Position numbers and translations under genes: made by a program
Shown: positions 8,821 to 14,419 of the stretch, in pieces
How the letters are laid out: each line of letters opens with the position of its first letter
Position numbering within the stretch: position 1 is the stretch's first letter
Source of the DNA: Candidatus Thiodiazotropha sp. (ex Codakia rugifera)
GTDB taxonomy: Bacteria; Pseudomonadota; Gammaproteobacteria; Chromatiales; Chromatiaceae
DNA: 64,000 nt
NCBI GenBank assembly: GCA_025656675.1
Contig: JAHXHN010000003.1
Location: 372,001-436,000 of the forward strand
Direction of reading: 5' to 3'
Notes under the pieces: model-generated
What the model was told of the DNA's origin: nothing
Seen by the model: only the letters and a program-made list of their open reading frames with translations
Database searches by the model: none

Positions 8821-9978
8821 ATGCGAAGAATCATTATATGTCTCGACGGAACCTGGGCCAGCCCCGACAACCTGGTGGAACGAGGCGACGGTTCAGAGGT
8901 TCACAAACCGTCCAATATACTCAAGACTTACCGGGCTGTGATGCCAAGATCCGAAGATCGGATCGACCAGATCTCATACTACGATGAAGGCGTGGGAGCC
9001 TTATCCGCCCAACGGGGTCTTCGCAACAAGGCGCTTGCAAAACTCGATTCACTGCTGGGTGGAGCATGGGGTGCAGGATTTGAGCAGAACATCGAGTCTG
9101 CATATAGCTTCATCGTCGGCAACAAACTGCCTGACGATGAAATTTTTGTATTTGGTTTCAGCCGAGGTGCTGGTCAGGCACGCAGTCTGTGCCGTTTCAT
9201 CGACTGGATGGGCGGCACCCTACAGAAACCGGATGCCTATTTTATTCCGGACTTTTTCAAGCACTACATCGAGACTGAAGCGGCCGAGGGGGCTGCCCAG
9301 CAATTCATGGATCAGCTGATTGCCACAGGTAAAAAGATTGCACCTCCAAACCCAACACGGGTCCGGTTTCTGGGTGTCTACGATACTGTACTGGCGCTGG
9401 GTTCCCGGTTACGCGCCGATTTTGATAACGATAAGAGAACCACGGCCCCCGGCCTGAGCTTCCATGTGGGGGAAAAGCCTCCCAAGATCGTCTCTGTGGC
9501 AAGACAGGCTCTCGCCATCGACGAACGTCGTACTGACTTCCGACCTGAAATCTGGCGAGGCGCCCATCCAGATCAATCGGTTGAACAGCGCTGGTTTCCC
9601 GGGGTACACACCAGTATTGGTGGAGGCTACGCAAATGATGGGCTTGCCAACGGGGCGCTGCGTTGGATGATCGAGGCCGCTGAACAGGAGGGTCTCGCTG
9701 TCGACAAGAAATTTCTCAGTTTCTATCGACCCTGGTTTGGTGATGAACGCAATGAGTCCTACACCGGCTTTATGAAGCTTCGTGGTTGGATAAGCAGCCT
9801 CAAAGGTGAAAGTGGAGATCGTGACCTGCTGGCCAGTGCCAGCTTTGCCGGACTGGATGTTCACGAGACGGCACTCAAGCTGCTCGCACATGACGACTCC
9901 TATCGACCGAAGAACCTGCTGGCACTGATTCGCAGCCGCCCTGACCTGGTTTCCCAACTGCCGACAGGCATTGTCTAA
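8821..9978 (+). CDS. DUF2235 alpha/beta-hydrolase (putative phospholipase/lipase)
   Basis: A predicted serine hydrolase of the DUF2235 family, whose characterised members include Tle1-type phospholipases. The 385-residue protein opens with the family motif IIICLDGTWASPDN. It has the nucleophile elbow GFSRGAG (Ser114), and VYDTV (Asp188) and PGVHTSIGGGY (His263) are plausible triad partners. No signal peptide or membrane helix is seen, so it is likely cytoplasmic unless exported by a dedicated system. The ATG follows GGAGCAGGCGC. It is the first gene of a same-strand cassette with the MBL-fold and CHAT genes (72-bp gap, then a 4-nt overlap). No VgrG, PAAR or T6SS adaptor gene is nearby, so a secreted-toxin role is not supported by context. 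Confidence 0.82.
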   Translation: MRRIIICLDGTWASPDNLVERGDGSEVHKPSNILKTYRAVMPRSEDRIDQISYYDEGVGALSAQRGLRNKALAKLDSLLGGAWGAGFEQNIESAYSFIVGNKLPDDEIFVFGFSRGAGQARSLCRFIDWMGGTLQKPDAYFIPDFFKHYIETEAAEGAAQQFMDQLIATGKKIAPPNPTRVRFLGVYDTVLALGSRLRADFDNDKRTTAPGLSFHVGEKPPKIVSVARQALAIDERRTDFRPEIWRGAHPDQSVEQRWFPGVHTSIGGGYANDGLANGALRWMIEAAEQEGLAVDKKFLSFYRPWFGDERNESYTGFMKLRGWISSLKGESGDRDLLASASFAGLDVHETALKLLAHDDSYRPKNLLALIRSRPDLVSQLPTGIV

Positions 9979-10050
9979 CCTTGCTACTGGCCCGCCGTTA
10001 ATCCCCGCTGGCTTCTATCAAGAAAACAATACGATAAGGGATGACACGAT

Positions 10051-11151
10051 ATGTTCCGACTTGAGGTGCTCCCTGCACGCTACGGTGATTGTATATGGAT
10101 TGAATACAGCGAAAACCCGGTACGGCGCATGTTGATCGACGGCGGTGCACCCGGTGTCTATAAAAAGGCGCTCAAACCAAGGCTCAAACAACTCCCAGAT
10201 ACTGACCGGGAGTTTGAACTGCTTGTCATCACCCATGTCGACTACGACCATATCCGCGGCATCATCGAACTGGCCCATGATGACAGTATGCCCTTCAAGG
10301 CCAAAGATGTCTGGTTCAACGGCTATAGGCACCTTCCTAAAAAGGATAACCCTGAAGTCCTGGCAGGCAAACACGGCGAGGAACTTACCGACTTGCTGTT
10401 GAAGAATGGCAACAGCTGGAATAGCCAGGGATTCGATGGCAATGCTGTTGTCATTCCGGATGATGGGAATCTGCCACAAATCAAATTCGATGGAGATCTA
10501 ACAGTAACCCTGATGGGGCCGACGATTCCGATGCTCGCGGATCTACGCAAAGATTGGGAGCACTCCTGTAAAGATATCCGTATCACCCCAGAGGAGTTGG
10601 AAGAGGCACGCAGAGAAGGTCGATACAAAACCCTCGGCGGTAAAGAGGTGGCAACAACCAAGCCGGAACGCCCCGATATTGAACAACTATTGAGGACCGA
10701 TTTTGAGGAAGACCCTTCTTCCGCGAATGGAAGCAGTATCGCACTGCTTGTTGAATACCAGGGTTATAGGGTGCTACTCGCCGGTGATGCCCATCCGAGC
10801 ACGCTGGTCAAATCGATCGATCGCTTGGGAGAGGAGAAACTGAAACTTGATGTCTGCAAGCTACCCCACCACGGCAGTCGGGGAAGTGTTAGCGCTGCAT
10901 TGATCAAACGTCTGGATTGCAAACGCTACATCTTCTCCTCGAACGGCGATCAATTCTACCACCCCCATCCCGAGGCAGTGGCGCGAGTCATCGAGTATGG
11001 TGGAGATCAACCGAAGCTGCTGTTCAACTACCATACCGACGAAACTGACATCTGGGACGACGATCTGCTGCGTAACGCCTATGGCTATGAAACGGTATAC
11101 CCGGATGGTGAGAAAGGTGGGATTGTGATTGAGAAAGGTGGCGACAAATGA
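10051..11151 (+). CDS. Metallo-beta-lactamase-fold hydrolase (ComEC-like MBL domain)
   Basis: A 366-residue soluble metal-dependent hydrolase. The metal-binding motif THVDYDHIRG (His62, Asp64, Asp66, His67) is intact. Later ligands are visible in AGDAHPS (Asp246), LPHHGSRG (His273/274) and FYHPHPEAV (His304/306), the pattern of the MBL domain of ComEC-like proteins. A charged insertion of about 90 residues (150-225) separates the two halves. Substrate unknown: nuclease or phosphodiesterase activity is possible for this fold. The stop overlaps the start of the CHAT gene (ATGA), implying translational coupling and a functional link. There are no ComEC membrane domains, so this is not a competence channel. 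Confidence 0.85.
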   Translation: MFRLEVLPARYGDCIWIEYSENPVRRMLIDGGAPGVYKKALKPRLKQLPDTDREFELLVITHVDYDHIRGIIELAHDDSMPFKAKDVWFNGYRHLPKKDNPEVLAGKHGEELTDLLLKNGNSWNSQGFDGNAVVIPDDGNLPQIKFDGDLTVTLMGPTIPMLADLRKDWEHSCKDIRITPEELEEARREGRYKTLGGKEVATTKPERPDIEQLLRTDFEEDPSSANGSSIALLVEYQGYRVLLAGDAHPSTLVKSIDRLGEEKLKLDVCKLPHHGSRGSVSAALIKRLDCKRYIFSSNGDQFYHPHPEAVARVIEYGGDQPKLLFNYHTDETDIWDDDLLRNAYGYETVYPDGEKGGIVIEKGGDK

Positions 11152-13085
11152 AGTCAACCTTAGTTGAATTTGCCCGCTTTAAACATTTAGGGACAGGTAT
11201 TCTGAGGAAGGGTGACGAGTATTTGCGAACGGTCATTGACCACCCGGTGCAGCAGGTCTGCATGGGCATTGACCAATTGCCTTTCAACAAACTGATGCAT
11301 GAGCTGCGCTATGAAAACGATTCCGAGGAAGCACGCATCGATGCACTGGGTACACTTTCAGCGTTGGTCACAGATCTTCTGCAAAGACATGATGATCACA
11401 AGGATATAACGGACCGGCTCGATGCGCTCAATAAAAAATACCGGGGCGATCCGGTTGCGTTATCAAAGCACATCATGGAACTCCTGCAACATCATGACAA
11501 TGGCAACAGGATGGTGGATGGTCCTCTGCTGAAAGAGATCAAAAAGGGTTGCAACGCACTTCAGCAAATCGATCTGGTAGCCAATGCCACTGAACTCTCA
11601 GCACTTCCCTTCGAAGCGGCCTTGTCAGATGATGGTATACCCCTGTTTCGAAGCGGAGAGGGCGTTGTATTGACCCGACGGGTACGCGGTGATTTCAACG
11701 AGAGCCCGGCTCATTGGCCTGTCACGCCACGCGTCCTTTTTGTCTGGTCTGCAGCAGGTGGAGAGGTACCTTACAAAGAACACCGTGAAGTCCTGCTCGA
11801 AGCACTCAAACCCTGGTTGCCACCAGGTGATCTTGAATCGGTTTTTGTTGAGATCGGTAATGCCAAACGCAGACAGATCGAACAAGTTACCAGAGATGGG
11901 GGATTCACCCATTTCCACCTGCTGGCCCATGGCCAGCGCCTGAAGGATGAGAATGACCAACGGTTTGGTATTGCATTGAATCATCCCATTGAAGGTGCCG
12001 ATGTGGTAACACCCGAACAGCTTTCAGAAACACTGACGGGGATTCGCAGCAGTGCTGCGGTCGTTACCCTGGCTGCCTGTGACGCAGGTAATCAAACCGA
12101 CGTCATCAATCCTGAAAAAAGCCTCGCACACATACTCCATACTTCTGGCTTTCCAGTCGTTGTGGCCTCACAACTGCCCTTGACAATAAAAGGTTCAAAT
12201 ATCCTTGTGCAACGCTTCTATGACGACCTTTTCGAGGGCCTTGATGTACGAGAGGCACTCCATCGCACCCGGGTTGAGCTCTATGAAAAGGAGGAAGCAG
12301 GACACGATTGGGTCAGCCTGGTGGGTTATGTACAGCTACCTGAAGGCTATACCCATTTTTTAGAGTCAGTTAGGCTGAAGTCCCACCTCAGCTCACTTAT
12401 GAATCTCCGTGATCGGGCCGAGGCGCTGGCAGAAACCGGTGCCAGCCGTGATGATTTTTTTGCCATTGGGTCAGATCTCAAGCGACAGATCAACACACTC
12501 AACAATCTACTGTTACAGACAAAAAACAAGAAGGCGCTGAATGAGAATCTTGGCCTTCTTGGGAGCGCTGAAAAGCGCCTGGCTGAATTACTTTTTAGAC
12601 ATTTAGGGGATGAAACAAGCAAACAGGCATCGCGCCAAGCACTGGATCGTGCCTGCAATTGGTATAGACAGGCATTCGATGCCAATCCCTCCCACCACTG
12701 GAGTGGGGTTCAGTACCTCGCTTTGCACGCTGCCCTCACGGGCGAGGTGGATATTCAAAAGTGGAAGACTGCTTATCGTGCCGCAGAGGTTGATCGTATC
12801 CGCCCGACTGAATACTGGGCACAGGGCTCCTTGGCTGAACTCGCGCTGCTGAGTCAGTTAATTGGCGTATCGACTGACGAGACAGCTGAGTTCTATCTAC
12901 TAGAGATGAAGGCGCGGTTTGAGTATGTTACGTCAATAAAGCCCAATGCAGATAAACCATTCCAATCCACGGAGCTGCAACTAAGACGATACATAGATTG
13001 GTGGCTACCTGTTAACGGTTTTTTCTCAGGTGCTCCAGATCTCGTTCAACAAGCCAGGAAGCTGGTTGAGTTACTCGTGGAATAA
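11148..13085 (+). CDS. CHAT-domain (caspase-like) protease with helical C-terminus
   Basis: A predicted cysteine peptidase of the caspase/CHAT class. In the 645-residue protein, an N-terminal helical region (1-140) precedes the CHAT domain (about 140-400). The catalytic dyad is intact: His261 in HLLAHGQ and Cys311 in TLAACDAGN, followed by the conserved VVVASQLPLT strand and a VRFYDDLFEG-like helix. The C-terminal part (about 480-590) is rich in short helices and resembles the TPR-like TRAFs-binding/DUF4071 domain found with other CHAT proteins; that resemblance is from memory. No signal peptide. Translation is coupled to the MBL gene by a 4-nt overlap. CHAT proteases often act as proteolytic switches in bacterial conflict systems; the target here is unknown. 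Confidence 0.85.
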   Translation: MKSTLVEFARFKHLGTGILRKGDEYLRTVIDHPVQQVCMGIDQLPFNKLMHELRYENDSEEARIDALGTLSALVTDLLQRHDDHKDITDRLDALNKKYRGDPVALSKHIMELLQHHDNGNRMVDGPLLKEIKKGCNALQQIDLVANATELSALPFEAALSDDGIPLFRSGEGVVLTRRVRGDFNESPAHWPVTPRVLFVWSAAGGEVPYKEHREVLLEALKPWLPPGDLESVFVEIGNAKRRQIEQVTRDGGFTHFHLLAHGQRLKDENDQRFGIALNHPIEGADVVTPEQLSETLTGIRSSAAVVTLAACDAGNQTDVINPEKSLAHILHTSGFPVVVASQLPLTIKGSNILVQRFYDDLFEGLDVREALHRTRVELYEKEEAGHDWVSLVGYVQLPEGYTHFLESVRLKSHLSSLMNLRDRAEALAETGASRDDFFAIGSDLKRQINTLNNLLLQTKNKKALNENLGLLGSAEKRLAELLFRHLGDETSKQASRQALDRACNWYRQAFDANPSHHWSGVQYLALHAALTGEVDIQKWKTAYRAAEVDRIRPTEYWAQGSLAELALLSQLIGVSTDETAEFYLLEMKARFEYVTSIKPNADKPFQSTELQLRRYIDWWLPVNGFFSGAPDLVQQARKLVELLVE

Positions 13086-13148: not shown

Positions 13149-14300
13149 TCATCCCACTAAATAACGATCCAGCCCCTTCACCGAACTGTCACGCAACAGA
13201 TAGCTACTGCGATTACTGCGACGTGATCGCTGTCCATCCAGACTGACCGAGACAGGTTGTCGTTCCAGGATACACAACCGGCGACTCAGGCAATCCGCAC
13301 GCCAACGGGGTGAGGCCTTTTTGGCACGCTCCTCTACAGCAATACGGGTCAGGGTGAATTCATCGGCAGGCTGCTCGGCGACAACACGTCTCTTTATTGC
13401 ATGGTGGGCCTTGCTCAGACTCCCCTGCTGCACCCCCATGTCGTAGAGTGCGGCAAGACAGCGTAGATTGTTGATCGGAATGGATGATACACCCCTGAGG
13501 AAGGCCAGTGCGGACATCAGCAGTTTGCCATACTTATCGTAGGCGTAACGCAGCATCACTTCGCGGAATAGCTTCTCTCTCCCTACTGCCTGCAGATAAC
13601 CCTTCCAGGGCTGCGAAAAGCCATGCTTACCCGTTCCCGTGCTCAAGCCATCGGCCCAGATTATTGCCTTTTTACGTGACCCGTCCAGGACTTCCCAGAA
13701 AATCAAATAGTCGTCTTTGTTTTCAAAACAACGCTGCAAACGACGTTCGTCTTCACCGCGCATACGCCGAAACAGCTCTTGCAGGGTACCTGATTTCAGA
13801 TTGCATTGAATCGGACCGAACGAGAGACCGGCAAGATCAAAATTGCCCGTCACCTCCTGGTAGGGATCACCCCTGGTTTCAAATGCAGCTGTCACTTTCA
13901 TACCGCAGTCGAAGGCAACTTTAGGTGCAATATAAGGAAGCTGACTCGGATGATGCATCTCCAGATAGAGGTTGTTCCCGTTGCGATTGCAGCGACTGAA
14001 ATAGTCCAGCCTGACGAGCTTTTGCGCCTCTTTTTCGAGAGTGGATGGATCATTTGCCGTGATCACGATACAGAGGCCATCGTCACCAGGCTGATAGGCT
14101 GTTGCAGGCCTTTCAGGATCGATTTCAATCGGCATTGAAAAATTATCCCGTAAAATTTGCAACCCTGCCACCAGCTCTCTATGCACCCGGATTTTTCCAT
14201 TCGCCCGGATGAACTCTTTGAGCAGGAAATTGGGTGTAAGGTATGCGGTGGATTTACCTCCAATGATAAAGTTTTCCTCAAGCTGAATTGAATTCGCCAT
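13149..14300 (-). CDS. Peptidase M15-like / GH46-like fusion protein
   Basis: A 383-residue protein convergent with the CHAT cassette. The N-terminal part has the peptidase-M15-like opening LTPNFLLKEFIRANGKIRVH and ends in LYLEMH, but the usual SGYR and His/Asp zinc motifs are degenerate, so this half may only bind. From about residue 130, AFETRGDP followed by GNFDLAGLSFGPIQCNLKSG resembles the catalytic region of GH46/lysozyme-fold enzymes, with Glu in AFE as a possible acid. The fold suggests action on peptidoglycan or chitosan-like glycan. No signal peptide is visible. I chose the ATG at 14300 because AAGGAGG lies 5-7 nt upstream; a longer reading to 14366 lacks such a site. Phage-like or effector origin is possible. 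Confidence 0.55.
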   Translation of the reverse strand: MANSIQLEENFIIGGKSTAYLTPNFLLKEFIRANGKIRVHRELVAGLQILRDNFSMPIEIDPERPATAYQPGDDGLCIVITANDPSTLEKEAQKLVRLDYFSRCNRNGNNLYLEMHHPSQLPYIAPKVAFDCGMKVTAAFETRGDPYQEVTGNFDLAGLSFGPIQCNLKSGTLQELFRRMRGEDERRLQRCFENKDDYLIFWEVLDGSRKKAIIWADGLSTGTGKHGFSQPWKGYLQAVGREKLFREVMLRYAYDKYGKLLMSALAFLRGVSSIPINNLRCLAALYDMGVQQGSLSKAHHAIKRRVVAEQPADEFTLTRIAVEERAKKASPRWRADCLSRRLCILERQPVSVSLDGQRSRRSNRSSYLLRDSSVKGLDRYLVG

Positions 14301-14419
14301 AATGCCTCCTTGTTGCTCGATCTTATAATCATTAACAGAGTCCTGAACCAGGCCTTGGCTCGGCATAGGTGACTATGAATAATTATTGTTGGTCAAATTA
14401 TTTATTCAAGCTATGGCAC

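Follow-up and report, generated by a model that had tools for sequence, protein, structure and literature searches.

The window analysed here, a stretch of 64,000 nucleotides (nt) from Candidatus Thiodiazotropha sp. (ex Codakia rugifera) (assembly GCA_025656675.1, contig JAHXHN010000003.1, positions 372,001 to 436,000), holds a cassette of three forward-strand genes which encode a DUF2235 hydrolase, a metallo-beta-lactamase (MBL)-fold protein and a CHAT protease that also carries TPR-S (Table 1). According to the open reading frame (ORF) calls, the first two genes are separated by 72 nt and the second and third share 4 nt; all three are intact, as described in an earlier reading made from the letters alone (the sequence-only reading). 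The TPR-S domain, which that reading does not name, was placed behind the CHAT domain by Pfam. The catalytic residues listed in that reading were recovered as well: the Ser114/Asp188/His263 triad in 7/7 aligned DUF2235 proteins, the HxDxDH metal site of the MBL as H62-V-D64-Y-D66-H67, and the caspase-like His261/Cys311 dyad in 81/81 aligned CHAT proteins, the window protein included. Relative to the nearest relative (genome G001), the ratio of non-synonymous to synonymous substitution rates (dN/dS) was 0.068 for DUF2235, 0.064 for the MBL and 0.081 for CHAT, which indicates that the proteins are maintained; for comparison, the flanking SMC and sugar kinase genes gave 0.049 and 0.114, respectively. 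A promoter and terminator scan yielded numbers at about chance level.

Table 1. Coordinates of the cassette genes and of their observed and predicted features within the window
Feature	Position	Strand	Evidence
DUF2235 (Tle1-like) alpha/beta hydrolase, 385 amino acids	8821..9978	+	PF09994, E 5.9e-64
DUF2235 catalytic residues	Ser114 at 9160-9162, Asp188 at 9382-9384, His263 at 9607-9609	+	Alignment
MBL-fold predicted gated pro-nuclease, 366 amino acids	10051..11151	+	PF00753 Lactamase_B, E 3.1e-10; PADLOC
MBL predicted gating insertion 1 (residues 94-112)	10330..10386	+	pLDDT, alignment
Predicted cleavage after Leu104, V-L-A-G-K	codon 10360-10362	+	Insertion 1
MBL predicted gating insertion 2 (residues 166-222)	10546..10716	+	pLDDT, alignment
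Predicted cleavage after Leu195, T-L-G-G-K	codon 10633-10635	+	Insertion 2
CHAT protease with TPR-S, 645 amino acids; predicted MBL activator	11148..13085	+	PF12770, PF20308
CHAT domain (residues 125-390)	11520..12317	+	PF12770, E 3.8e-23
CHAT dyad	His261 at 11928-11930, Cys311 at 12078-12080	+	Alignment
TPR-S domain (residues 424-526), predicted sensor	12417..12725	+	PF20308, E 3e-12, above cut-off

Regarding the MBL, the PADLOC matches were LmuA (E 8.2e-70), RTasMBL (2e-45) and Avs1a (9.9e-43); the NCBIfam Avs1a model gave 219.9 bits, which is under its cut-off of 420. The metal-site residues H62, D64, D66 and H67 are accompanied by D246, H273 and H304, which are invariant in 14 aligned sequences. 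A structural model built from 14 sequences had a mean predicted local distance difference test score (pLDDT) of 83.7, with values below 50 solely at residues 99-105, 176-187 and 190-203. The best Foldseek match of this model in the PDB was the ComEC domain 9ic4 (E 2.3e-14), and at the sequence level every PDB match with E up to 0.1 was a competence/ComEC protein. On these comparisons, the assignment of the window MBL to the HamM/Avs1a/CanC family of gated pro-nucleases is supported. According to the available text of PMC12799240, MBLs of this kind are made as proenzymes, which two insertions gate and a neighbouring protease unlocks: a trypsin domain cuts HamM after Ile118 and Ile218, which yields a DNase, the Canu caspase activates CanC, each insertion of which has a conserved Gly, and the tested members HamM and CanC behave as nucleases.

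The mark in insertion 1 changes with the type of the partner protease. The column of L104 is Leu in 14/14 CHAT-linked MBLs, compared with Leu (2), Phe (4), Tyr (2) and Met (1) in nine caspase-linked MBLs and Ile (3), Met (1), Thr (1) and no Leu in five trypsin-type MBLs. Pfam found a trypsin domain in 4/5 trypsin-type loci (L145 shows an ABC-3C domain only) and a C14 domain in the three caspase partners tested. In insertion 2, Leu-Gly stands at L195-G196 in 13/14 CHAT-linked MBLs, and the caspase-linked MBLs show, by eye, a similar mark in both insertions. In a set of eight CHAT-linked MBLs freed of redundancy, the insertions contain 14 LG dipeptides, versus a shuffled mean of 6.4, with 5/2000 shuffles as high.

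When 84,980 genomes of named species were scanned with a CHAT alignment, 103 relatives emerged, the best 80 of which were kept for all locus counts. A recognised effector-type partner was found within 404 nt of CHAT in 80/80 loci (within 300 nt in 78/80), the partner types being calcineurin-like phosphoesterase (56), MBL (14, seven of them from Thiodiazotropha), a gasdermin-like family (9) and phosphoesterase plus gasdermin-like (1). The catalytic Cys of CHAT was matched by a regular expression in 64/80 and placed by alignment in all. CHAT and MBL form a single ORF in 6/14 MBL loci (L051, L072, L073, L077, L104 and L107), and the gene order varies between DUF2235-MBL-CHAT (window), DUF2235-CHAT-MBL (L103) and fused CHAT-MBL followed by DUF2235 (L072, L073). 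On the CHAT tree, which was built with a quick method and carries only Shimodaira-Hasegawa-like approximate likelihood ratio test (SH-aLRT) support, the MBL partner label requires four changes, at least three of them forced by well-supported branches. These repeated changes, together with the 10/10 adjacency in same-genus carriers reported below, argue that the MBL-CHAT pairing is more than chance. The protease-effector design is also present in Nitrospirota, Actinomycetota, Acidobacteriota and Bradyrhizobium.

The calcineurin-like phosphoesterases beside CHAT-TPR-S (55/57 used, L083 and L096 having been removed by a length rule; the non-redundant test drew on 23 of the 55) have an insertion that is long and variable and holds many Leu-Gly marks (e.g., L026:9556-11088 and L014:5114-6571), and this pattern suggests that they are probably a second kind of gated effector. 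The gasdermin-like family, about 240 amino acids long and mostly from Bacteroidota (L040-L045, L048, L049, L055 and L100; e.g., L041:7159-7905), had no Pfam match under 0.01, and a PDB sequence search with the family profile found none; its structural model has the fold of a gasdermin, and a Leu-Gly mark precedes a disordered acidic tail. TIR-profile matches at E < 1e-5 were obtained in 10/80 loci, with 6/10 gasdermin-like versus 2/56 phosphoesterase loci, counts which rest on a home-made profile of five sequences. This co-occurrence is compatible with, rather than proof of, a TPR-S domain that senses NAD+-derived signals, a function which Burroughs and Aravind are said to have predicted for it in 2020.

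The cassette occurs in 10/22 same-genus genomes (window counted), and a CHAT relative was found in 1/120 genomes of further relatives, that one being of the phosphoesterase type. A vertically inherited core locus, which the sequence-only reading had named as an alternative, was rejected on these counts. Adjacency across genomes, the other condition raised in that reading, is strong: the MBL lies directly upstream of CHAT in 10/10 same-genus carriers (window plus nine), with an overlap of 4 nt in nine and of 10 nt in one ORF call, and DUF2235 lies upstream in 8/10 (once as a fragment at a contig end), being missing upstream in G015 and G021. The cassette is flanked by SMC-QueF-sugar kinase on one side and by an unnamed gene and a CptA-like gene on the other. 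On the SMC side of non-carriers, where the cassette would be expected (11/12 genomes, G008 excluded; three stretches shorter than 5 kb), the kinase was present in 11/11 and cassette genes in none. A TIR-DUF2235 fusion stands just downstream of CHAT in G003 and G015 (L018:11107-12513, L021:6636-8042), and in G019 a NACHT-FGE protein (L023:6060-9128) stands directly downstream of CHAT in the place otherwise taken by the unnamed convergent gene. These gene contents point to MBL-CHAT as the core, around which lipase-like and NLR-like genes come and go, and the TIR-DUF2235 and NACHT-FGE genes at the same site support a conflict setting. The unnamed convergent gene (window 13149-14366) occurs in 8/10 cassette carriers and 0/9 non-carriers searched; searches against Pfam, NCBIfam and PADLOC returned nothing for it, no PDB hit was stronger than E 0.16, and its start resembles wall peptidases by eye, for which Pfam gives no support.

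The fixed triplet assumed by the sequence-only reading did not survive the comparison, since DUF2235 is dispensable and gene order is variable; the constant unit is MBL-CHAT, and DUF2235 is an optional companion. A fixed three-gene system was therefore rejected. DUF2235 was found in 9/14 MBL loci (six from Thiodiazotropha, L072, L073 and L103) versus 0/66 other loci (Fisher p 8.6e-9 by locus), is absent from 5/14 MBL-type loci, and occurs in 46/150 sampled genomes of the phylum; MBL-CHAT stands without any DUF2235 in G021, L051, L077, L104 and L107. The solved structures nearest to the DUF2235 hydrolase are Tle1-type proteins of the type VI secretion system (T6SS) (6sjl, E 8.5e-07). A Leu-Gly mark in DUF2235 was rejected because the sole repeated Leu-small triplet in seven aligned proteins sits in the family core. 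On a Bradyrhizobium plasmid (L029:3241-8083), DUF2235, caspase, hypothetical and MBL genes stand in a row with transposases on the flanks, a lipase companion in a caspase-type locus, and patatin genes lie near gated MBLs in L027, L114 and L115. As far as the available texts go, phospholipase genes adjoin some gasdermin operons (PMC9612521), and the caspase genes of another conflict system always adjoin an alpha/beta hydrolase gene (PMC7159879), which is the same pairing. Given the intact triad, the lipases near other gated MBLs and the phospholipases of gasdermin operons, DUF2235 is probably a membrane-lipid arm.

We consider the cassette to be a protease-gated suicide module, with a probability of about 0.7, in which CHAT would unlock the MBL nuclease and DUF2235 would be an optional second arm. 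In the resting state, both disordered loops would keep the MBL nuclease blocked. Stress or infection would give a signal, probably sensed by TPR-S, that activates the CHAT protease, and CHAT would then cleave either loop on the C-terminal side of a Leu that precedes a small residue (L104 and L195). The freed MBL may then degrade DNA, leading to cell death or arrest and stopping the phage at the cell's cost, while the DUF2235 hydrolase would act, if present, probably on membrane lipid. The conflict logic of the cassette is well supported: the conflict or programmed-death role proposed in the sequence-only reading is strengthened by the membership of the MBL in a gated antiphage pro-nuclease family and by CHAT relatives that adjoin predicted effectors, including one with a gasdermin-fold model. 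Seen directly are the genes, the conserved residues, the modelled disorder of the loops, the position-specific marks that track the partner type, the fusions and the recurrent pairing; the cleavage of the MBL by CHAT, the DNase activity, the trigger, the role in phage defence, the lipase substrate and any control of the lipase by the protease are inferred. A death-type protease is suggested because the same CHAT family adjoins the gasdermin-fold family and because cleavage of bacterial gasdermins takes place behind a Leu (or Arg), with the Leu and the adjacent Gly essential in one tested gasdermin (available text of PMC9612521). The chances are about even that CHAT-TPR-S is a general death switch wired to three or more locked effectors that are not related to one another (the MBL nuclease, the calcineurin-like phosphoesterase and a gasdermin-like pore former), each freed at a similar Leu-Gly type mark in a disordered loop or tail, and that a DUF2235 lipase, sometimes TIR-fused, gives the nuclease version a further arm against the membrane; if so, the cut mark would be a portable tag that recruits new effectors.

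Several observations weigh against this interpretation. The window mark in insertion 1 is Leu-Ala and not Leu-Gly, L077 is without the insertion-2 mark, the insertion-2 columns are unaligned in 8/9 caspase-linked proteins, and the Leu-Gly motif was spotted by inspection, first in these same MBLs. The marks of the other partners are less uniform than those of the MBLs: their number varies among the phosphoesterases, some of which have one, and the strict mark was found in just 6/10 gasdermin-like tails (equal to the highest of 2000 shuffles). CHAT is broken in 2/10 same-genus carriers (a stop in G005, a split in G011). Regarding DUF2235, no PADLOC model matched it at E up to 0.1, and the association with MBL by lineage (3/7 versus 0/66, Fisher p 5.6e-4) leaves the 66 uncollapsed into lineages, 14/66 of them having less than 4 kb on one side of CHAT. 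The second Foldseek match of the MBL model was the pneumococcal phosphorylcholine esterase (E 4.3e-11), so that DNA is not the sole possible substrate.

Among the alternatives, a Thiodiazotropha symbiosis or stress programme that has nothing to do with phage but draws on this protease-effector chemistry is unlikely but keeps the most weight; the fixed site in carriers, the low dN/dS and the relatives being clam symbionts would fit it, whereas the presence of the cassette in fewer than half of the same-genus genomes, its broken copies and the same design in the distant groups named above speak against it. Somewhat less likely still is that the lipase is the true effector, regulated or processed by CHAT and MBL and killing by membrane lipid hydrolysis. 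The intact DUF2235 triad and the recurrence of lipases near gated MBLs (DUF2235 in nine CHAT-linked loci and the Bradyrhizobium caspase locus, patatin in three others) agree with it, but MBL-CHAT is kept in five cases without DUF2235, and no mark like that of the MBLs was seen in DUF2235. The least probable alternative takes the MBL for a phosphodiesterase with lipid, wall or small-molecule substrates, the envelope then being attacked by two hydrolases; the breadth of the MBL fold and the esterase match are set against a ComEC nuclease-type domain as top match, PDB sequence matches that are all competence/ComEC proteins, and PADLOC relatives that are antiphage MBLs, with HamM and CanC nucleases in the available text of PMC12799240.

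A suicide module of the proposed kind would add a CHAT-TPR-S class, with two exactly predicted cut sites, to the newly described protease-activated nucleases, and one protease family would tie nuclease pairs to the logic of bacterial gasdermins. If it is right, further locked effectors near caspase-fold proteases could be sought by way of a short sequence mark that lies in disordered segments, and the origin of effector choice by caspase-type proteases would become testable in bacteria. DUF2235, best known from secreted phospholipase effectors, would gain a likely intracellular setting.

Compared with known systems, the cassette is close to Canu (KaeCanABC), which, as described in the available text of PMC12799240, likewise pairs a protease of the caspase fold with a gated MBL whose two insertions are disordered, each bearing a mark that contains Gly. 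Canu differs in having a C14 caspase with an Ig-like domain instead of CHAT with TPR-S, and in having CanB, with CanC downstream, whereas in the cassette the MBL is upstream or fused and no CanB-like gene lies between or beside the genes. A canu-like locus is present in the same genome about 75 kb before the window (G000:C3 about 292520-296280; L113:4521-8280), with a C14 caspase, a 439-amino-acid protein and an MBL with an LmuA-type match. On an Agrobacterium plasmid (L142:1907-9195), caspase, hypothetical and MBL genes are followed by CHAT; the opposite strand holds TIR, another caspase and a metallophosphoesterase. The nuclease-protease pairs of Hachiman, AVAST, Lamassu and DRT (HamM, Avs1a and others) have an MBL that is homologous and is cut within the corresponding two insertions; they differ in that their trypsin domain is fused to a core defence protein. 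Among eight neighbouring proteins of the cassette tested by Pfam, there was no HamA, STAND, SMC or RT partner, no trypsin-fused core, no Cas gene and no T6SS gene. Membership in Canu, AVAST type 1, Lamassu and Hachiman was rejected because defining parts are missing and the Avs1a score is under its cut-off. Operons that combine a bacterial gasdermin with a caspase-like or CHAT protease share the caspase-fold protease and the Leu-Gly cleavage logic, with a pore former in place of the MBL nuclease. The Craspase TPR-CHAT protein (Csx29) likewise combines a CHAT protease with TPRs; it differs in its Cas setting, and a PDB sequence search with the CHAT profile matched no chain at E up to 0.01. The T6SS Tle1 phospholipases have the DUF2235 catalytic domain and triad in common with the cassette, in which DUF2235 is part of a protease-nuclease setting. 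Neither a CHAT-MBL nor a CHAT-phosphoesterase pair was found described in the literature searched, and the main text of PMC12799240 does not contain the word CHAT, though its fig. S2 may hold a CHAT clade. The statement of the sequence-only reading that no named system corresponds to the triplet stands for the exact gene set, but the mechanism class was published in November 2025. The window protein carries both the dyad and the TPR-S domain by which CHAT-TPR-S proteases are recognised, and the cassette is of the same mechanism class as the published gated nucleases, with a CHAT-TPR-S variant of the protease.

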